Source: Fimbriiglobus ruber (GTDB taxonomy: Bacteria > Planctomycetota > Planctomycetia > Gemmatales > Gemmataceae). Taken from it: DNA of 64,000 nt. This document shows, piece after piece, positions 3,547 through 59,422 of the stretch. Made by a program: the position numbers and the translations under genes. The DNA is taken from NCBI RefSeq assembly GCF_002197845.1, contig NZ_NIDE01000019.1, positions 496,001-560,000 on the forward strand. The letters are read 5' to 3'. Position 1 is the first letter of the stretch. Each line of letters starts with the position of its first letter. The notes beneath the pieces are model-generated. The model worked only from the letters and a program-made list of their open reading frames with translations, did no database searches and had not been told where the DNA came from.

Positions 3547-3928
3547 GCGTTTTCCCAACATTCGTGATCCGGAACGGAACAGGCGTGACCGGCAGTGTAC
3601 TACACCGCCCGCCTCGGTCGAGGGGTTACGTAACAATTTGCGGGAAAGACGGGTATGGCAGCCTGGGGCAGTTAGATTAGATCAAGAGGTTTGGTTAGGG
3701 ATGGGATTTGCCACCGACGTTTTCACGACGCCGGCCTCCTCCCAAATCTCCCATTTTCTCACACAGGTCCGGAATCGGATCAGCAGGAAGACCCAATCGC
3801 CTACTTTGAAGACCGTAGGAGGGACGTTGACGTTTCTTGCTCCATTGTGAGGTTCAAGTTGCGAAAGCGGTGCGGACGATACCGACTGTAACGGTGTTTC
3901 CGTTTTTCACGACAGTACCGCGTGAACT
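3547..3928. other. Divergent intergenic region between amidohydrolase and efflux operon
   Basis: These 382 bases separate two divergently transcribed units, so promoters for both should lie here. I see no convincing coding frame, no long repeat and no clear sigma-70 pair. The stretch just before 3929 is relatively AT-rich and is the best place for the efflux-operon promoter. Confidence 0.4.
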
Positions 3929-6900
3929 ATGCTATTCCGCATGAAAAACCGTCATAACGATTCGACTCGTCGAATCGGCGTGATGAGCGCCCGGAAACTC
4001 TTCTCACTGTGGCGGCCGGCGCTGCAAGTGGCGGTCGCGACGGAATTGCTGTTGCACGGCGTGGGATGCTCCCGCCCGTTCTACCGCAAGCAGGCCGACA
4101 AGGAAGTGTCGGAGATCCTGGGCGACAAGGACAAGTACGACGCCTGGAAGATCGACAACTTCCACATTTACCCCGACCCGCAGGCCCGGTTCGCCGACCC
4201 GAGCGACCCGGACCGGCCGCCCAAACCGCCGGACGACCCCGCCGCCTACGACCTGTCGCCCAACCCGCAGAAGCCCGGAAAGGCGGGGGTCGCGCGGGTT
4301 GAAGGCACCGGCTATCTCGCCCTGATCACCAAATGGGACAAGGAAAACCGCGAGAAACTCGCCCAGGAAGAAGCCACCGAGAAGGCGGAACTCGCCCGCG
4401 CGAACATCGGCGATTCCGACGACTTCGTCGGCCCGAAGCAGGAAATCCGCCTCGCTTCCGCCACCATGCAAGCCCCCCCAACCGCGCCTTCCGGCCCGGG
4501 TACGCCGGCCCCGTCGTCCGGTCCGCTCGGGGCAACGCCCTCGTCAGTTGAGACGACGCCGGCCGAAATTAATCAGACGGGTCTGGAAGCCACCGGGCGG
4601 ACATCGCTCGAAATCGCCGGGCGTCCGACCTACCGGATTTCGCTCGACCAGGCGGCCGAACTCGCCATGTTCAACAGTCGCGAGTATCAGGACCGGCGGG
4701 AAAACCTGTACTTGGCGGCCCTGCCGGTGTCCCAGGAGCGGTTCGCGTTCACCTCGCAACTGTTCGCCGCCTCGGAAGCGGTTCGTGGAGCCTCCGGCAG
4801 CCAAACCGCGAGCGGGACGACGAACTCCTGGAGCATCAATAACGGGGCGGGTCTCAGCAAAGTCTTACCCACGGGGGGGTTGCTCCTCCTGAACTTCGCC
4901 AACCAGACGGTGTTCGATTTCACGAACCCGAAGTCGACCCTCAGCACCACGACCCTCAATTTCAGCGCGCTACAACCCCTCCTGAAAGGCGGCGGCCAAG
5001 CCGTGGCCCTCGAATCGTTGACCCAGGCCGAGCGGAACCTGCTTTACCAAATCCGGACGTTCGCCCGCTTCCGCAAGGAGTTGTACGTCGAGATCGCGAG
5101 CAACAGCGGCGGCAGTATCTCCGGTTCGAGCTTCCAACCGACCGGGATTCTGTCGAACAACGGGGCCGGCGGCGGCGGTCTGGGCGGGTCCGGAATAGCC
5201 GTCGGCGGTGTGCCGAGTGGGGCGACAACGATCCCTGGCCCGATCCTCGCACCCAGTTCGCCCGGAAGTCTGAATCTCGGGGCCGCGATCACGCCCGCCC
5301 CGGCCGGCTACCTGAACACGATGTTGCAAAACATCGAAATCTACATCGACAAGGAAAACATCTCCGTCCTCAACCTCATCTTGCAACGATACCGCGGGTT
5401 GCTGGAAGGCGATGTCGTCGGGCCGCTCCAGGTCCAATCCGTCGAACAACAGTTGCTGACCGGCCGGGCCAACTTGCTCACCGACCAGCAGCAGTATCTC
5501 GATTCGATCGACAGCTTCAAGATCGAACTCGGGGTGCCGACTAATCTGAACATCGAGACTGACGATTCGGTCTTGAGGCCGCTCATGAAGCAGTACCGGC
5601 GGTCGCGGGCGATCATCGAGGAAGAGCAAGCCGCCGTCATGGACGCCTCCCGGCTGAGTACCCTGGACAAGGCTCCGCAAGTCCGGCCGGAACTGCTCAA
5701 CATGATGCAGAAAACCACGTTCGTGAAAGGAACCGAGTTCGCCAAAGCGATCCGGGCACGGTTGGCGGTGTGGGAAGCTCTGTCCGACAAAGACCTAAAG
5801 GACAAATTGGAGACGATTCGTCAGGAGACGCAAGCTCTTTTGAATCGCCAGGCCGAGCTTCAGAAAAACGACAAACTCCCCACTCCGGCGGATCAGGCCC
5901 GGCTAAAGGCCCTCGGGTCCGAAAGCGACCTCGGAAATTACGAACGGGTTCTGCGGAAATACGAGGCGGATTACGTCCAGGGCGGCACGGTGAAAAAATT
6001 GGACCCGACCGCCGAGCGCCGCCGGGTCGTGCAGTTCCGGGACGTGGCCAGTTACTGGCAGAAGATCCTGGTCGAAGCCCGCGACGAGCGGTGGGCGGCC
6101 ATTCGCAAGGGCTGGCCAGAACTCCCGCAGTGTTGTGTGGACGGGGTCGACCTCATCCACGCCGACCTGTCAACGGCCGAGGCGGCCGCCGCGCGACACG
6201 CCCTCGCGAACCGGTTCGACCTCATGAACGTCCGCGCCCAAATGGTGGACGCCTGGCGGCAACTGGCCGTGTTCGCCAACGCCCTACTCGGAACCTTCAC
6301 GGTCCAGTACAACCTTGCGACCAACTCCCCGCTGACGGTGGCCCAACCCACCAACATCGGCGGAAGTGGGACTACCAACCAACTTGTGCTCAATACGCAA
6401 CTCCCTCTGGTTCGAATCCAGGAGCGGAATAACTATCGCGGGAGTCAAATCGCGTACCAACGGCAGCGCCGGGCCTTGCAGGAAGCCGAAGATTTAGCTG
6501 TGAGAGCCGTGAGAAGTGAAATTCACTTGTTGCGTGTGTATGCCGAGAGCTATAGAATTCAGCAACGTCAACTGGAACTGGCCTACCTGACCATCGATAG
6601 TTCACTGGAGGCCTTGCAAGCTCCCAGTCCGCCCGGGACCGCCCGCGGCGGGGACGGCCCCGCCGCCCTGACCCAACAGTTACTAAGCGCACAACGCAGC
6701 CTTCCGGCCGCCCAAAACGCGTTGCTCGCGATCTGGATTAACTATCTAGACGCCCGTCTTCAACTTTATCGCGATCTCGAGTTGATGCCCCTCGACGCGA
6801 GAGGAGTATGGATCGATGAAATCCGAGCCTGCGACTGCGGCCTCAGCTCCGAACTCCTTCCCGGTGGCCCGCCCCTCCCAGCAACCGGAAGCGGCGCCCC

Positions 6901-6991
6901 CACACCCGGCAGCCAGCAACGGCTCGGCGAACCACGATCCATCCCACTCCCACTCCCCGCCGCAACGGGCGGTCAAAAAAGGATGGAGTAG
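3929..6991 (+). CDS. Very long TolC-family outer-membrane efflux protein
   Basis: This 1,020-aa product is about twice the length of ordinary TolC/OprM proteins. A signal-like N-terminus with Cys in HGVGCSRPF (possible but imperfect lipobox) leads to an acidic, Pro-rich region. TolC-type helices start near residue 234 (ISLDQAAELAMFNSREYQ). A Gly/Ser/Pro-rich insert lies at about 391-460 and a second, charged helical insert at about 564-730. The closing helices (NALLAIWINYLDARLQLYRD) are the classic TolC end. The frame continues about 57 residues past the usual end, overlapping the next gene by 176 bases; the tail is low-complexity and may not matter. It heads an export operon with an HlyD/MacA adaptor, an ATPase and a MacB-like permease, so it should form the outer-membrane channel. 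The start is uncertain: MLFRM at 3929, MKNRH at 3941 or MSARK further in, none with a clear ribosome-binding site. Confidence 0.85.
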   Translation: MLFRMKNRHNDSTRRIGVMSARKLFSLWRPALQVAVATELLLHGVGCSRPFYRKQADKEVSEILGDKDKYDAWKIDNFHIYPDPQARFADPSDPDRPPKPPDDPAAYDLSPNPQKPGKAGVARVEGTGYLALITKWDKENREKLAQEEATEKAELARANIGDSDDFVGPKQEIRLASATMQAPPTAPSGPGTPAPSSGPLGATPSSVETTPAEINQTGLEATGRTSLEIAGRPTYRISLDQAAELAMFNSREYQDRRENLYLAALPVSQERFAFTSQLFAASEAVRGASGSQTASGTTNSWSINNGAGLSKVLPTGGLLLLNFANQTVFDFTNPKSTLSTTTLNFSALQPLLKGGGQAVALESLTQAERNLLYQIRTFARFRKELYVEIASNSGGSISGSSFQPTGILSNNGAGGGGLGGSGIAVGGVPSGATTIPGPILAPSSPGSLNLGAAITPAPAGYLNTMLQNIEIYIDKENISVLNLILQRYRGLLEGDVVGPLQVQSVEQQLLTGRANLLTDQQQYLDSIDSFKIELGVPTNLNIETDDSVLRPLMKQYRRSRAIIEEEQAAVMDASRLSTLDKAPQVRPELLNMMQKTTFVKGTEFAKAIRARLAVWEALSDKDLKDKLETIRQETQALLNRQAELQKNDKLPTPADQARLKALGSESDLGNYERVLRKYEADYVQGGTVKKLDPTAERRRVVQFRDVASYWQKILVEARDERWAAIRKGWPELPQCCVDGVDLIHADLSTAEAAAARHALANRFDLMNVRAQMVDAWRQLAVFANALLGTFTVQYNLATNSPLTVAQPTNIGGSGTTNQLVLNTQLPLVRIQERNNYRGSQIAYQRQRRALQEAEDLAVRAVRSEIHLLRVYAESYRIQQRQLELAYLTIDSSLEALQAPSPPGTARGGDGPAALTQQLLSAQRSLPAAQNALLAIWINYLDARLQLYRDLELMPLDARGVWIDEIRACDCGLSSELLPGGPPLPATGSGAPTPGSQQRLGEPRSIPLPLPAATGGQKRME

Positions 6992-8795
6992 GTGGAAGAA
7001 GATCCTTGTCGTGGGAGCGGTCGTGGCCGTTCTTGGTACGGTCACGATCGCGGCCGTGATTCGGACGCGGAATGGCGCCGCCCGCCCGGAACTCGTACTC
7101 CACAAGGTCAAATACGATCGCGTGGAATTGACCATCGTTGAACGGGGTGCCCTCGAATCGACCAAGAACAGCGACATCGTCTGTCGCGTTCGGGCCGGTA
7201 ATAAAGGGGGCACGATCGCCAGCCAGATCAAAATGGTGATCGACGACGGGTCCGAGGTGAGAGGGCCGCGGCCGGAAAAGCCGACCGGGGATCTCGTCGT
7301 CGACCTCGACTCGTCCGGCCTTGAGGAACAACTCAAGACCCAGAAAATCGTCGTCGACAAGGCCGAGTCGGACAAGATTCAAGCCGAAGAACAGTACAAG
7401 ATTAGTGTCAGCCAGAACGAGAGTAACATCAAGACGGCCGAAACGGACGTCGAGCTGGCAGCCATCGATCTCAGTAAGTACACGGGGATCGATGTCGAAG
7501 AAATCCTCAAAACTGGTGCCCTCAGCAAGCTGCACCAGGAACTCAAGTCCGCCAACCGGAACGCCACGCGACCGGCGCGGGAACTCGCCGACGAGGATTT
7601 GAAGAAATTCAAAACCGGCGAATACCTCCAGGAACTGAAGGACGACCTGGGCCAAGTCGAAACCGCGCAATCCGATTTAACGCAGCAAGAGGACCGCGAG
7701 GCTTGGGCGTTCCGGATGGCGAAGAAGGGGTATCAAACCCAAAGCCAGGCCCAGTCCGAAACATCTCGGAAAGAAAGCTACCAGCTCTCGTTCAACAAGA
7801 TGACGCTCCAACTCGACGTACTGGTGAAATACAAGAAAGTTCGCATGCTCACCCAGTACGTGACCGCTCTCGAAGAGAAACAGCGGACGCTCGACCGCGT
7901 CATCAAGCAGGCCAAATCCCAGGAAGCCAAGGACCGGAGCGACCGCGAGTCCAAGAAATCGGTCTGGGAACAGGAACTGGCCCACTACCACGACATCGAG
8001 AGCGAGATCAAGAAGTGCAAGATCTACGCCCCGCAGGACGGCATGGTGGTTTACTACATCCCCGAACAGGCGCGGTTCGGCGGCGGCTCGCAGCAATCGA
8101 TCGTGGCCCAAGGCGAACCGGTCCGCGAAGGCCAGAAGTTGATGCAGATCCCCGACCTGCGGCACATGCTCGTGAACACGAAAGTCCACGAGGCTCTCGT
8201 GTCCCGGGTCCACCCCGGCCAGAAGGCGACCATCCGCATCGACTCCTACGGCAACCGACTCCTGCGGGGGGTCGTTGACTCGGTCGCCACGGTCGCGGCG
8301 CAGGCGGACTTCATGTCTTCGGACGTCAAGGTTTACGCCACCAAGGTCGCCATCAACTCCGACGACATGGAGGGGATGGACCTCAAGCCCGGGATGAGTG
8401 CGGAGGTCACGATCGTCATCGCGGACGCCCTGGAACACGTCCTTACGGTCCCCCTTCAGTCGATCGTGGGCGGCAGCGAGATGAAGTCGAAGCGAACGGT
8501 CGTCGTCATGACGCCGAGTGGACCGCAGGAACGCGAGGTGGTCATCGGCCTCAGCAACGACAAGGTGGCCGAAGTCAAAGAAGGACTTCAGGAGGGGGAC
8601 GAAGTCGTCGAGAATCCGAAGGCCGTTCTCGGCGAGAAGGCCAAGGTCCGCGAAGTAGGCGGCGACAATAAAGGCGGCGAAAAGGGCGGACCCGGCGACT
8701 TCGGCGGCGAGAAAAAGGGCGGCGGCCGCGGCAAAGGGAAGGGCAAAGGAGGCCCGCCTCCGGGTATGTCGCCGGACCCGAGCGGCGGGCGGTAA
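6816..8795 (+). CDS. MacA/HlyD-like periplasmic adaptor of the export operon
   Basis: The 659-aa product is a membrane-fusion (adaptor) protein. The order is a Pro/Ser/His-rich cytosolic lead of about 55 residues, one membrane helix (KKILVVGAVVAVLGTVTIAAV) and a first barrel/lipoyl half. A long coiled-coil hairpin rich in Lys, Glu and Gln follows (about 170-390). The returning lipoyl half has CKIYAPQDGMVVYY, and then come beta-barrel segments. The last 45 residues are Gly/Lys-rich (KGGGRGKGKGKGG), which is unusual and could be a flexible tail. The start lies inside the TolC gene, out of frame, with 176 bases of overlap; no later in-frame ATG precedes the membrane helix, so the overlap is probably real. 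It should bridge the inner-membrane MacB-like pump and the TolC-like channel. Confidence 0.87.
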   Translation: MKSEPATAASAPNSFPVARPSQQPEAAPPHPAASNGSANHDPSHSHSPPQRAVKKGWSRWKKILVVGAVVAVLGTVTIAAVIRTRNGAARPELVLHKVKYDRVELTIVERGALESTKNSDIVCRVRAGNKGGTIASQIKMVIDDGSEVRGPRPEKPTGDLVVDLDSSGLEEQLKTQKIVVDKAESDKIQAEEQYKISVSQNESNIKTAETDVELAAIDLSKYTGIDVEEILKTGALSKLHQELKSANRNATRPARELADEDLKKFKTGEYLQELKDDLGQVETAQSDLTQQEDREAWAFRMAKKGYQTQSQAQSETSRKESYQLSFNKMTLQLDVLVKYKKVRMLTQYVTALEEKQRTLDRVIKQAKSQEAKDRSDRESKKSVWEQELAHYHDIESEIKKCKIYAPQDGMVVYYIPEQARFGGGSQQSIVAQGEPVREGQKLMQIPDLRHMLVNTKVHEALVSRVHPGQKATIRIDSYGNRLLRGVVDSVATVAAQADFMSSDVKVYATKVAINSDDMEGMDLKPGMSAEVTIVIADALEHVLTVPLQSIVGGSEMKSKRTVVVMTPSGPQEREVVIGLSNDKVAEVKEGLQEGDEVVENPKAVLGEKAKVREVGGDNKGGEKGGPGDFGGEKKGGGRGKGKGKGGPPPGMSPDPSGGR

Positions 8796-55901: not shown

Positions 55902-56279
55902 TCATTCCTCGACCGACAGTGGGTTCCTCGCGAAAATCCATTCTTTGATCGGCGTCCCGTCGACGAGGTGCTTCTGCACGAACTCCGGCACGCGATCGGC
56001 CGTGAGATTTGCGTAGTACGTACCTTCCGGGTAAACGACGGCGAGTGGTCCGCTTTGGCACGCGCGGAGGCAGCCGACTTTGGTGCGGTAGCAGGAACGA
56101 TCGGGAGTTCCCGGCGACAGGCCGCGCTCCTTCAATTCCGCCTTCAAAGCTTCCCACGCGGCTGAGCCGACTTCGGACGAGCAGCACTGATCGCCGATGC
56201 ACAAGAACACGTGCCGCTGGTAACTGCCGATCCCGAGTTTGCCCGCGACCTCGGTCAGCTTTGCCATCTCCTTGCTCAC
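55902..56279 (-). CDS. Thioredoxin-fold [2Fe-2S] ferredoxin
   Basis: I start it at the GTG at 56279, which has GAGG 9 bases upstream; an ATG four codons on has a ribosome-binding site with no spacing. The 125-aa product has RHVFLCIGDQCCSSEVG and SCYRTKVGCLRACQSGPLAV, giving the Cys ligands of the thioredoxin-like ferredoxin family (as in NuoE or Aquifex Fd). The closing TYYANLTADRVPEFVQKHL is also typical. It should carry one electron in the cytosol. It is convergent with the DUF3455 gene; P-II lies upstream on the same strand with a 159-base gap, so it may be separate. Confidence 0.88.
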   Translation of the reverse strand: MSKEMAKLTEVAGKLGIGSYQRHVFLCIGDQCCSSEVGSAAWEALKAELKERGLSPGTPDRSCYRTKVGCLRACQSGPLAVVYPEGTYYANLTADRVPEFVQKHLVDGTPIKEWIFARNPLSVEE

Positions 56280-56438
56280 GGTCCGATTCCTCGTCGCGAC
56301 GTTTCGTTCGTGCATTCCGTCCTGGCGTCTTATCTCGTGTCGCGCGACTCGACCACCGCGCAAAAGCGAGCCGGCCGACGGTCCGCGCGCTCGTCGCGCG
56401 GGGGCCGCCGGCCGGTCAGGCTCATGGAGTCGTGCGCC

Positions 56439-56792
56439 TTACGGCCCGATCGCGTCCGGGCCGCGTTCGCCGGTCCGGATGCGGACGGCGTCGTCGAGGC
56501 CGAGGACGAAGATCTTGCCGTCGCCGATGTTGCCGGTGTCGCCGGTGCGGGCCGCGTGGACGATCGCCTCGACGGTCGCGTCGACGAACGCCTCGTTCAC
56601 CGCGATTTCCAGCTTCACCTTCGGGAGCAACCGGATCTGGACCTCGGACCCGCGGTACACTTCCGTGTACCCGCGCTGGCGGCCGCACCCGCGGACGTCG
56701 CTCACGGTCATGAGGTACACGTCCGTCTCGGCGAGTGCCTGCTGCACGTCTTCCAATTTCTCCGGGCGGATGATCGCAACAATCAGTTTCAC
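56439..56792 (-). CDS. glnK: P-II nitrogen regulatory protein lacking Tyr51, GTG start
   Basis: The 117-aa protein is a P-II signal protein (GlnB/GlnK), which senses ATP/ADP and 2-oxoglutarate and plugs or frees Amt. It has KLIVAIIRPEKLEDVQQAL, the T-loop GCGRQRGYTEVYRGSEVQIR (residues 35-54), LPKVKLEIAV, and GDGKIFVLGLDDAVRIRTGE. Gln39 and Lys58, used for 2-oxoglutarate, are present. Position 51, the Tyr that GlnD uridylylates in proteobacteria, is Val here; Ser49 is kept. So control is probably by ligands only, or by another modification. It follows amt on the same strand, as in glnK-amtB pairs. Confidence 0.93.
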   Translation of the reverse strand: MKLIVAIIRPEKLEDVQQALAETDVYLMTVSDVRGCGRQRGYTEVYRGSEVQIRLLPKVKLEIAVNEAFVDATVEAIVHAARTGDTGNIGDGKIFVLGLDDAVRIRTGERGPDAIGP

Positions 56793-56938: not shown

Positions 56939-59422
56939 TTACGCCGGGGTGACCTTGATGGCCTTTCCGGGCAACCGCTTCTTGAGCAAGGTCTCCAGCT
57001 TCGCGATCAGGGCCGCGTGGTCGCCGCCGCGGAGCCGGAACTTGGTCCCGCTCAGCGTCGTGACGTGCGGGTAGACGGCGAGGAAGTTCGGGTCGGCCGG
57101 GTGGTCGCTCGGCTGACAGAGGGCGTTCCACACGGTCTTGAGTTCCGCGTGGGTGACCCCGTCGACCGACACCTCGAACCGGCCGTTGCCCTTCGGCGAG
57201 GTCGCGGCCCGCGGTTCGGACGTTCCCGCCCGAATCGTTTCGGTCGCGAACCCGAAGTCGAAGCCGACTTCGCCGTGTTCGGAGTGGTCGAGCCCCTCGG
57301 TCTCGTCCTTCTTGCTCGTCGAGAAGTTCCCGAGCGTAATCACGTGCGTGAGTAAGACCAGGATCGCACTGACGACGAACGCGAACCCGACCGAGATCGA
57401 AGCGGCTTTCACCTGAATAAAGAACTGGCTGTACGGCCCCTTCTTGTCCTTGCCGTCGTGTTCCTTGTCGTCCTGCTTGTCGATGATGGCCTGGAGCTTG
57501 TCTGATTCGTCCTTCAAACTCTTCGCGGTCGCGGCCGCATCGTCGACGACCGCCTGGACGTCGGCCAAGGGTTTTTTCTCGTCGTCCAGGGCCTTCTTGG
57601 CTTCGTCCAATTTCTTGGTGGCCTCGGCCGCATCACCCTTGGCGTCGGTGATCTTCTTGACTTCCGCTTCGGCGTCCGCAACTTTCTTCTCGGCCTCTTC
57701 GACTTTCTTCTTCGGTTCGTCGAGCTTCTTGGCCTCTTCGGCGGCCTTCTTATCAGCTTCGGGAAGTTCCTTCTTGATCTCTTCGACTCGGGCGCGACTC
57801 CACTTCCACGCGAACGGTCCGTCGCCGCCACTACTCGCCCCGCCGGGATTGATTGCCGTTGAACAGAACAACCCGGTCAACACGGCACCCACAAACCCAC
57901 CGATCCCGTGAACCCCGAAGGCGTCGAGAGAGTCGTCATACTTGAACAACCCCTTCAGCCACACGGCAATGTAGCAGATCAGGGCTGCCGCCAGACCGAT
58001 GACAATGCCGCCCCAGACGTAAACGTATCCGGATGCAGGCGTCACCGCTACGAGTCCAGCAACGATCCCGGAAGCGAGGCCGAGGGCTGTCGGCTTACCC
58101 TTGTGCAGCCACTCGATCAGCATCCACCCGAGGCCGGCAGCAGCCGCTGCGGCTTGCGTGGCGGTGAAAGCGGACGCCGCTTGATACGTGCTCGCCGTTG
58201 CACTGCCGCCGTTGAAGCCGAACCAACCGAACCACAACAACCCGGCTCCGAGGAGGGTCAGGACCATGCTATTCGGGTGGATTGCGGTCTTCGGGTAGCC
58301 GTCCCGGCGGCGCAACACGAGACACGCGGCAAACCCGGCCATGCCGGCCGCGATGTGAACGACGGTCCCACCCGCGAAGTCGAGAGCGCCCAGCTTGCCG
58401 AGGAAGCCGATCGCATTGCTGCCGCGCTTGGCCACGAGTACGGAAGGATCGAACCAGTCGAACGCCCAGACCATATGGGCGAGCGGACAGTAGACGAAAC
58501 TCACCCAAAGGATCATGAAGATACAGAACGGCCAGAAACGAATTCGCTCGGCGATCGCCCCGCTGATGAGTGCCGGGGTGATGATCGCGAACATCCCCTG
58601 GAACATCACGTGAACGTAGACCGGGATGTTGTAGCCGGGTAAAAATTGGTCGGCCGCGACGCCTTTCAAACAGAACAGATCCCAACTCCAACCGATCACC
58701 CCGCCGTCTTCGACCCCGAGGAAATTAATCTTGATCTGAGACGGCCCGAACGCCAACCCGTAGCCGAAGACGATCCAGAACACGCCGACGACTGCCAAGG
58801 CGGCCATGCTCTGCATCATGGTTGCTAGCACGTTTTTGCGGCGGACCATACCGCCGTAAAACAGAGCCAGACCGGGAACCATGAACATGACAAACGCGCT
58901 GGAGGTCAACATCCAGGACGTGTCACCTTTTTTCTTAGCGTCGTCGCCGAAACTCTTACCATCGTTGGCAGTCGACTTCACCTCGTCGAGGGTCTTTTTC
59001 GTTTCATCGACCGTCTTCTTGGTCTCGGCGAAGTCGCCGATCCCTTTCATGGATACTTGCAGAGCATCGACGGTCTTCTTGACTTCGTCACCGGTTTTGC
59101 CGGCGGCCTCGGCTTTGGTCGCCGCCGACAGAGCCTCTTTCTTCAACTCCGCCAATGCCTTTTCGGATTCCGCTGCTGACTTCTTCGTCTCTTCCAGTTC
59201 CGTCTTGGTCGCGGCGAGTTCTTTCTTGAACTCGGCGAGCGTTTTCTTGAGGTCGGGCGCCTTTTCTTTTTCTTTCTCCTTGTCTGTGTCCTCAACCTGT
59301 GCCACTTTTTTCTTGGTGGTCTTCGGGGTTGGGTTCTCTTCTTGGGAAACCACCGGCCCGCACAATAGCATGGCACAGGCGGCTACAAATGGAATCATCA
59401 ACCATCGTCGAGAGGAGGTCAT
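56939..59422 (-). CDS. amt: Ammonium transporter with two added coiled coils and a C-terminal domain
   Basis: The 827-aa protein is about twice the usual Amt length. A signal peptide (MIPFVAACAMLLCGPVVS) and a Lys/Glu coiled coil (about 35-160) lead into the Amt core. The core has ALFYGGMVRRKNVLATMMQS, DFAGGTVVHIAAGMAG (Asp160 and the first pore His), WFGFNGGSA and AFGVHGIGGFVGAVLTG (second pore His). Between TM10 and TM11 a second coiled coil of about 130 residues is inserted (about 527-660). After TM11 comes the GlnK-binding tail GLDHSEHGEVGFDF and an extra domain of 80 residues (748-827). With Amt topology both coils should be periplasmic and the tail cytosolic. The ATG at 59422 has AGGGG 7 bases upstream. 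Confidence 0.93.
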   Translation of the reverse strand: MTSSRRWLMIPFVAACAMLLCGPVVSQEENPTPKTTKKKVAQVEDTDKEKEKEKAPDLKKTLAEFKKELAATKTELEETKKSAAESEKALAELKKEALSAATKAEAAGKTGDEVKKTVDALQVSMKGIGDFAETKKTVDETKKTLDEVKSTANDGKSFGDDAKKKGDTSWMLTSSAFVMFMVPGLALFYGGMVRRKNVLATMMQSMAALAVVGVFWIVFGYGLAFGPSQIKINFLGVEDGGVIGWSWDLFCLKGVAADQFLPGYNIPVYVHVMFQGMFAIITPALISGAIAERIRFWPFCIFMILWVSFVYCPLAHMVWAFDWFDPSVLVAKRGSNAIGFLGKLGALDFAGGTVVHIAAGMAGFAACLVLRRRDGYPKTAIHPNSMVLTLLGAGLLWFGWFGFNGGSATASTYQAASAFTATQAAAAAAGLGWMLIEWLHKGKPTALGLASGIVAGLVAVTPASGYVYVWGGIVIGLAAALICYIAVWLKGLFKYDDSLDAFGVHGIGGFVGAVLTGLFCSTAINPGGASSGGDGPFAWKWSRARVEEIKKELPEADKKAAEEAKKLDEPKKKVEEAEKKVADAEAEVKKITDAKGDAAEATKKLDEAKKALDDEKKPLADVQAVVDDAAATAKSLKDESDKLQAIIDKQDDKEHDGKDKKGPYSQFFIQVKAASISVGFAFVVSAILVLLTHVITLGNFSTSKKDETEGLDHSEHGEVGFDFGFATETIRAGTSEPRAATSPKGNGRFEVSVDGVTHAELKTVWNALCQPSDHPADPNFLAVYPHVTTLSGTKFRLRGGDHAALIAKLETLLKKRLPGKAIKVTPA

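Follow-up and report, generated by a model that had tools for sequence, protein, structure and literature searches.

Few membrane proteins have been studied as thoroughly as the Amt channels, which are usually viewed as a compact trimer. The stretch of DNA analyzed here (the window) is 64,000 nucleotides from Fimbriiglobus ruber, a planctomycete of the family Gemmataceae (contig NZ_NIDE01000019.1, positions 496,001 to 560,000), and it carries an amt gene whose product (P0001, 827 amino acids, aa) has a long insert between transmembrane helices 10 and 11 (TM10 and TM11), a long periplasmic N-terminal extension and an added C-terminal domain. The open reading frame (ORF) starts with ATG at 59422 and its stop codon ends at 56939, the coordinates already given in an earlier note on this DNA. 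The features of the gene and of its downstream neighbor are listed below in window coordinates, in order from the start codon.

56939..59422, reverse strand: amt gene, 827 aa (ORF list, PF00909, TIGR00836)
59345..59422, reverse strand: signal peptide, about residues 1-26 (hydrophobic run with a small-residue end before Q; cleavage near VVS|QE, judged by eye)
58925..59344, reverse strand: N-terminal periplasmic extension, residues 27-166 (AlphaFold2 model, heptad tests)
57860..58924, reverse strand: Amt core TM1-TM10, residues 167-521 (alignments, fold match, pore residues)
57428..57859, reverse strand: TM10-TM11 insert, residues 522-665, predicted antiparallel helical hairpin 536-593 / 599-650 (alignments, AlphaFold2, heptads)
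57257..57427, reverse strand: TM11 and GlnK-docking tail, residues 666-722, EGLDxxEHGExxFD (alignments, fold match)
57182..57256, reverse strand: flexible linker, about residues 723-747 (predicted local distance difference test score, pLDDT, below 50 over 721-745 in the model)
56942..57181, reverse strand: C-terminal domain of about 80 aa, residues 748-827, b-a-b-b-a-b (AlphaFold2, profile and structure searches)
56439..56792, reverse strand: PII/GlnK gene, 117 aa, PF00543 (profile match), directly downstream of amt

The protein is a member of the Amt family. It scored 358.6 bits against PF00909 (cut-off 23.2) and 390.3 bits against TIGR00836 (cut-off 343.3), and its sequence matches in the PDB were Amt/AmtB. 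The AlphaFold2 model has the Amt fold, superposing on Archaeoglobus fulgidus Amt-1 (2b2f) over 390 residues with a root-mean-square deviation (rmsd) of 1.7 (Z 55.6) and on Escherichia coli AmtB with a Z of 53.9. AmtB residues F103, F107, W148, D160, H168, W212, F215, S219 and H318 were all conserved, as F274, F278, W319, D348, H356, W400, F403, S407 and H505; in a 33-row alignment of the F. ruber protein and its relatives, 8 of these 9 pore residues were invariant and the F103 counterpart was nearly so. We take their roles to be those of AmtB (Phe gate, S1 site, D160 and twin-His). These roles are described in part in a review of prokaryotic Amt proteins (PMC10433425), which, like the other papers cited by PMC number, is quoted from the portion of its text that was available. 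What the protein has in common with E. coli AmtB and A. fulgidus Amt-1 is the Amt fold, the pore residues, the EGLD..HGE tail and a glnK partner gene. It differs from AmtB in the TM10-TM11 gap, which is 144 residues rather than about 16 by sequence alignment (net about +128), in an N-terminal extension that places about 140 residues between signal peptide and TM1, and in an 80-residue domain past the GlnK tail. The linked PII gene and the EGLDxxEHGE docking tail point to the GlnK-regulated AmtB type, and with the intact pore they suggest that the product is a working, GlnK-regulated Amt channel. No second PF00909 protein was found in the 12.36-Mb genome (97% complete); the decorated form must therefore perform uptake, if any Amt does. 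An artifact or frameshift as the origin of this architecture was ruled out, since the frame is open, changes between close pairs are mostly synonymous and the architecture is common to relatives. Two genomes of the same genus have open frames of 858 and 831 aa.

The insert was modeled with confidence as a hairpin. AlphaFold2 placed helices at 536-565 and 568-593, then a turn, then a helix at 599-650, with pLDDT values of 83-97 in the blocks covering 531-660, so that this one member is predicted to have two antiparallel arms joined by a turn. The earlier note had put a second coil of about 130 residues at this position. It had also placed both extra segments on the outer side of the membrane, and the core alignment taken with the 11-helix Amt topology (PMC10433425, in part) puts them in the periplasm. 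As each insert would be one antiparallel hairpin, three inserts would give six helices in a trimer, and the N-terminal extensions could add three more. In VIA-align the hairpin superposed on the colicin E2/E9 receptor-binding hairpin, the Vipp1 helical hairpin and other helical hairpins with Z about 11 (10.7-11.1 and rmsd 3.6-4.9 for colicin and Vipp1), a likeness that may be mere common geometry, such Z values being common for long helices; no sequence kinship is claimed.

We searched for the same insert in a Gemmataceae set of 95 genomes, including that of F. ruber. The Amt family profile matched 84 of them, and one protein each from 80 was compared (the matching genomes G013, G034, G054 and G056 were not used). 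The TM10-TM11 gap was 49-204 aa in 41 of the 80 proteins (14 genera) and 13-34 aa in the other 39 (19 genera). In a tree built from the core only, all 41 insert-bearing proteins fell on one side of one branch (Shimodaira-Hasegawa-like approximate likelihood ratio test, SH-aLRT, 100), and the insert required one change on this tree versus a mean of 27 in shuffles. The columns of the insert, N-terminal extension and C-terminal domain were excluded from the tree, which was made by a quick method with no bootstrap and has three insert-free rows on very long branches. On this comparison of sequences, the insert was probably gained once and not lost within the 80-protein sample. The earlier note would have given up its proposal had the insert proved unfolded in prediction and not conserved in relatives; the hairpin is folded in the model and an insert in the same place has been kept in relatives. 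Two alignments were made from parts of a set of 40 sequences, A1 (33 rows; fold and family search) and A2 (37 rows; C-terminal domain). One frame-broken relative, L089, was kept in the tree, heptad z, spectrum and dN/dS (nonsynonymous to synonymous substitution rates) analyses and excluded from the identity, start-independent length and a/d analyses.

The wider phylum was sampled in a draw of 199 genomes, at least 72 of which had a PF00909 match. Of the 150 matches listed, which were the stronger ones, 145 spanned the TM10-TM11 junction and had no more than 45 additional residues over the domain as a whole. Of the five exceptions among those listed, one was the F. ruber protein itself, three were read as two frameshifts and a contig end, and the last was G426, which was not checked. 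Separately, 11 of the 95 Gemmataceae genomes had no match to the Amt profile (G001, G021, G023, G031, G035, G041, G048, G072, G078, G086 and G091); some of these are 97-98% complete and may lack an Amt of this type.

Because sequence rich in Lys, Glu and Ala is readily modeled as helix, the periodicity of hydrophobic residues was tested. Heptad power relative to shuffles gave z values of 9.6 for the F. ruber insert and 5.8 for its N-terminal extension. The mean z was 3.8 for the 34 of 41 inserts long enough to be tested (seven of about 50 aa were left out) and 4.3 for 25 N-terminal extensions. The mean spectra of insert and extension were alike, with a peak at 3.5 residues and a second hump at 2.3 (7/3), and the peak fell within 3.3-3.7 in 26/34 inserts and 17/26 extensions, as for a heptad repeat. 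Hydrophobic residues occupied positions a and d at frequencies of 0.52 and 0.48, versus 0.41 and 0.38 in identically treated shuffles. Alanine was elevated at positions g, c and d of the insert, which could let further helices pack, although this is a suggestion only.

A coil filter was applied to an 800-kb sample of the genome (about 6% of it; 638 ORFs, with crude ORF and TM calling). Three of 24 polytopic ORFs were flagged, and two of these, a cytochrome c biogenesis-like protein and an ABC-2-type permease (names by eye), had no real coil on reading, which left the Amt alone. Most polytopic proteins in the sample therefore do not have such a coil. Coil-like composition with some hydrophobic stretch was seen in 40 of the 638 ORFs; 37 of these 40 were not polytopic, and they were mostly not read.

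The two ends of the insert are its recognizable parts. Among 33 inserts, pairwise identity was 67% over the first five residues counted from a DG anchor near the start of the insert and dropped to 16-18% some 20-25 residues on; from the second end inward it dropped from 40% to about 14-20%. The middle had an identity of 14%, versus 10% expected from composition. Past the DG anchor, which is also present in some insert-free relatives, identity in the first arm was 23-30% over the following 15 residues, and in the second arm it was 18-40% over the final 20. Between close relatives of unequal length the extra residues were mostly interior and both ends matched (e.g., 106 vs 193 residues from the DG anchor); the exception among the four pairs shown (107 vs 116) had its extra residues near the second end. 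A fixed base with a free tip would explain most of these length changes.

The N-terminal segment begins with a signal peptide, as the earlier note had seen and as can be recognized by eye at about residues 1-26. The N-termini of relatives are also signal-like, and a cleaved signal peptide has been proposed for AmtB as well (PMC10433425, in part). The signal peptides of several relatives in one genus (g6) have a lipobox-like GC or AC, and lipobox-like FAGC, VTGC or LTGC was seen in many relatives (L001, L002, L004, L005, L008, L010 and others). If lipidated, the N-terminal coil would be tethered at both ends. A lipoprotein N-terminus was not adopted, since the cysteine is missing in other relatives and lipidation is therefore not general. 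Beyond the signal peptide, AlphaFold2 left residues 18-77 disordered (pLDDT below 50), placed two helices, 73-106 and 111-127, whose confidence was low to modest (47-73 in 10-residue blocks), and built a single helix at 131-178 that is continuous with TM1 (blocks at 68-74 outside the membrane). The N-terminal coil of about 125 residues that had been proposed is thus right in kind, but its length was generous, part of it being modeled as disordered.

The N-terminal extension was counted from where the hydrophobic signal region ends, a length independent of the start, in 75 rows. The 36 insert-free rows had a median of 29 residues and a maximum of 68, and the 39 insert-bearing rows a median of 131. 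Extensions of at least 80 residues occurred in 24 of the 75 rows, and all 24 had an insert of at least 104 aa. This pattern suggests that the insert came first and the N-terminal coil later, and it fits packing of the N-terminal coil on the hairpin.

The third addition, which the earlier note had placed after the GlnK-binding tail as an 80-residue domain, appears to be a folded domain at about residues 748-826. Its blocks from residue 751 on had pLDDT values of 89-95 within the full model, and the mean was 86.3 when it was modeled alone. Of 198 genomes of the class, a profile of this domain (E 0.001) matched 41, every one among the 47 sampled Gemmataceae, and none of the 151 from outside the family. 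The 43 matches sit in open frames whose lengths, 580-907 aa, are those of these Amts, and two genomes had two copies. The domain was present in 40 of 40 sequences compared, whether insert-bearing or insert-free, and so probably predates the insert. Searches of Pfam gave no family beyond weak single-member chance matches, and searches of PDB sequences gave no match up to E 10. The order of its elements is ferredoxin-like (best Z 6.2; best Foldseek E 0.05) and no family stands out; AcrB porter subdomains, heavy-metal-associated (HMA) domains, Cas2 and PII-like proteins were all among the structural matches, none prominent, and kinship to PII is not claimed. We infer that the domain could be a cytoplasmic regulator next to GlnK.

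The PII gene follows amt on the same strand after 146 bases. Downstream sequence of at least 600 nucleotides was available for 35 of 39 relatives' loci, and in 34 of these 35 a PII gene lay downstream of amt on the same strand. Downstream of glnK, a small protein at 55902-56363 (reverse strand) has a Cys pattern resembling, by eye, a thioredoxin-like 2Fe-2S ferredoxin. Other arrangements of Amt genes were seen in passing. A locus titled Alphaproteobacteria (L044) has tandem Amt frames at 3923-5254 and 5449-7392, the second with about 240 residues before the core. Some Gemmataceae have a second, diverged Amt or an Amt-sized frame with the C-terminal domain (G038 and G039; L031, 2-1837). The open frames around several of the planctomycete Amt matches (G098, G304, G376, G101, G105 and others) run to about 900-1280 aa, which suggests other domain fusions.

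Amt proteins with added parts have been described. Ks-Amt5 of Kuenenia stuttgartiensis (6EU6) and Sd-Amt1 of Shewanella denitrificans (8QJ3) have, as here, an Amt core with an added C-terminal part, and Ks-Amt5 is reported to bind ammonium without translocating it and to signal via a histidine kinase (PMC5764959, in part). The F. ruber protein differs from these in that its added domain is an 80-residue ferredoxin-like one that comes after a normal GlnK-type tail; no kinase family was detected in Pfam or NCBIfam scans, and a C-terminal histidine phosphotransfer and catalytic (DHp/CA) domain of the Ks-Amt5 type was not found. A search of the open-licence literature, which leaves out most subscription papers, brought up no Amt described as having an outer coiled coil, in keeping with the earlier note, which knew of none with a coil between TM10 and TM11. 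The same literature yielded no paper linking ammonium transporter, coiled coil and Planctomycetes. Within the available main text of the prokaryotic Amt review (PMC10433425) the terms "coiled" and "planctomycet" do not occur, and "coiled" does not occur in that of the Ks-Amt5 paper (PMC5764959).

The closest likeness in working principle is to mycobacterial transporters of the resistance-nodulation-division (RND) type. Trimeric MmpL5 has a 196-aa insertion predicted to be an antiparallel coiled coil, deletion of which abolishes pump function, and the coil reaches the peptidoglycan-arabinogalactan layer (PMC12501195). In MmpL10 such a coiled-coil domain drives oligomerization (PMC12183618). The likeness is that of a trimeric inner-membrane transporter with a long periplasmic coiled-coil insertion. 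However, the folds are unrelated; MmpL is an exporter with a proposed tube, whereas Amt subunits each have their own pore, and the Amt cores known so far trimerize with no coil at all.

Taken together, these data are consistent with a working, GlnK-regulated Amt trimer that carries a periplasmic coiled-coil crown selected for its shape and having a passive structural job, a reading that we put forward tentatively and that falls a little short of an even chance. The periplasmic TM10-TM11 loop would have gained an antiparallel coiled-coil hairpin, probably once, in one lineage of Gemmataceae. In the alignments the membrane-proximal ends of the hairpin stayed recognizable while the middle, forming the tip, lengthened and shortened. 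By sequence, most of these proteins, not all, have a long and usually heptad-bearing N-terminal segment that follows the signal peptide and leads into TM1. On the outer face of the trimer, a crown of three hairpins and as many as three N-terminal helices would stand, about 8 nm high here at about 55 residues per arm and 0.15 nm each. Since identity is low, periodicity strong and no loss was seen, the crown seems to have been retained for shape and helicity, not for sequence. Its likeliest job would be to stiffen or cluster the trimer and to hold space around it within a planctomycete periplasm that is variable and convoluted. The unchanged core would retain the transport chemistry, with regulation from the inside by GlnK and possibly by the C-terminal domain. 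A spacer or scaffold would thus be the likeliest role, and near-neutral growth of the loop its main rival. With lengths ranging over 49-204 residues, the crown is unlikely to be a strict ruler between layers; this variation in length and the unconserved tip speak against both a ruler for a fixed layer and docking of a conserved partner at the tip.

Several observations weigh against such a crown. The model of the N-terminal extension is of low confidence, and its contact with the hairpin is hypothetical. Eight of the 39 usable insert-bearing proteins have inserts of 83-144 aa with extensions of only 31-66 residues. Once corrected for phylogeny, the correlation of the two lengths is weak: phylogenetically independent contrasts (PIC) gave r 0.28, p 0.08 within the insert clade (39 rows), r 0.22, p 0.23 for inserts of at least 80 aa (32 rows) and r 0.31, p 0.008 for all 75 rows, insert-bearing or not. 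By rank test the same contrasts gave p values of 0.012, 0.024 and 0.009, respectively, and start-dependent lengths gave r 0.31, p 0.048 (40 rows) and r 0.30, p 0.014 (68 rows). L072, which has a contig-edge start and no signal found, was excluded from both length correlations; L114, L133 and L134, on long branches, were excluded from those over rows with and without insert, and eight rows with doubtful starts were further excluded from the start-dependent one. The length pattern is therefore not counted as proof of packing. Periodicity is also uneven, with no spectral peak at 3.3-3.7 in 8/34 inserts and 9/26 extensions, low heptad z values in some inserts (-0.9 in the frame-broken L089, and 0.2, 0.8 and 0.9), and z near or below zero in the extensions of L069, L071 and L083. 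Lastly, the insert evolves quickly. Its median dN was 0.43 versus 0.09 for the core over 119 non-independent pairs, and its dN/dS ratio (omega) reached 0.9-1.3 in some pairs (e.g., 1.31 and 1.03), though these are poorly alignable.

Rapid change of this kind would be expected if a helical sequence rich in Lys, Glu and Ala had entered a tolerant TM10-TM11 loop once and had been resized without any specific function, the loop being tolerant as it lies away from the pore chemistry and its helices are soluble. Omega values up to about 1, a tip identity of 14%, length swings from 83 to 204 aa inside the single genus g6, and a composition resembling that of the N-terminal extension all agree with near-neutral growth. 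However, the insert is present in 41 of 41 rows of the clade though its deletion would be easy, heptad periodicity has been kept in most rows, and other polytopic proteins of the 800-kb sample are without such a coil. Omega is also well below 1 in close pairs; two close pairs whose inserts are equally long gave 0.05 and 0.09, the pair L076/L079 gave 0.43, and the median for the insert was 0.37 (100 of the 119 pairs, those with finite dS) versus 0.11 for the core, the insert value being inflated by alignment error. We regard growth without function as somewhat unlikely.

The crown could instead be an anchor or docking post that contacts peptidoglycan, the facing membrane or a partner protein and so positions the channel. 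The modeled helix lengths would give it a reach of about 8 nm in F. ruber, the planctomycete periplasm can be enlarged and convoluted (PMC5394234, in part), the MmpL5 coil reaches its own wall layer (PMC12501195, in part), and some relatives have lipobox-like signal peptides. Lengths of 49-204 aa within one clade imply that no fixed distance is measured, however, and the near-random sequence at the middle of the insert and the several relatives lacking the cysteine likewise make an anchor improbable. Least probable is an outer gate or filter in which the hairpin base, the better conserved part, modulates ammonium entry or subunit coupling from its place between TM10, which bears a twin-His residue, and helix XI, the clamping helix (PMC10433425 and PMC5764959, each in part), for the pore residues are unchanged, clade identity beyond the DG anchor is only 23-30% and 18-40% in the two arms, and channels of the AmtB type need no such part.

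A more specific form of the structural crown is that three hairpins and three N-terminal helices form one outer stalk, about 8 nm long here, that places or clusters the channel in the periplasm of the Gemmata lineage and talks to the GlnK side via TM1 and TM11, with the C-terminal domain as a second cytoplasmic regulator. In this full form we consider it unlikely. The stalk might perhaps be 13 nm in the longest relatives, if these too are simple hairpins. To our knowledge, no uptake channel with an MmpL-like crown has been known before, and this would be the first if the stalk is real. The insert adjoins the clamping helix and has been retained in all 41 rows of its clade, which offers a natural length series (49-204 residues) with which the effect of an outer crown on a channel could be studied. 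As the insert is carried by named isolates (Gemmata sp. IIL30 and Zavarzinella formosa DSM 19928), it may also provide a handle on the organization of the unusual planctomycete periplasm.

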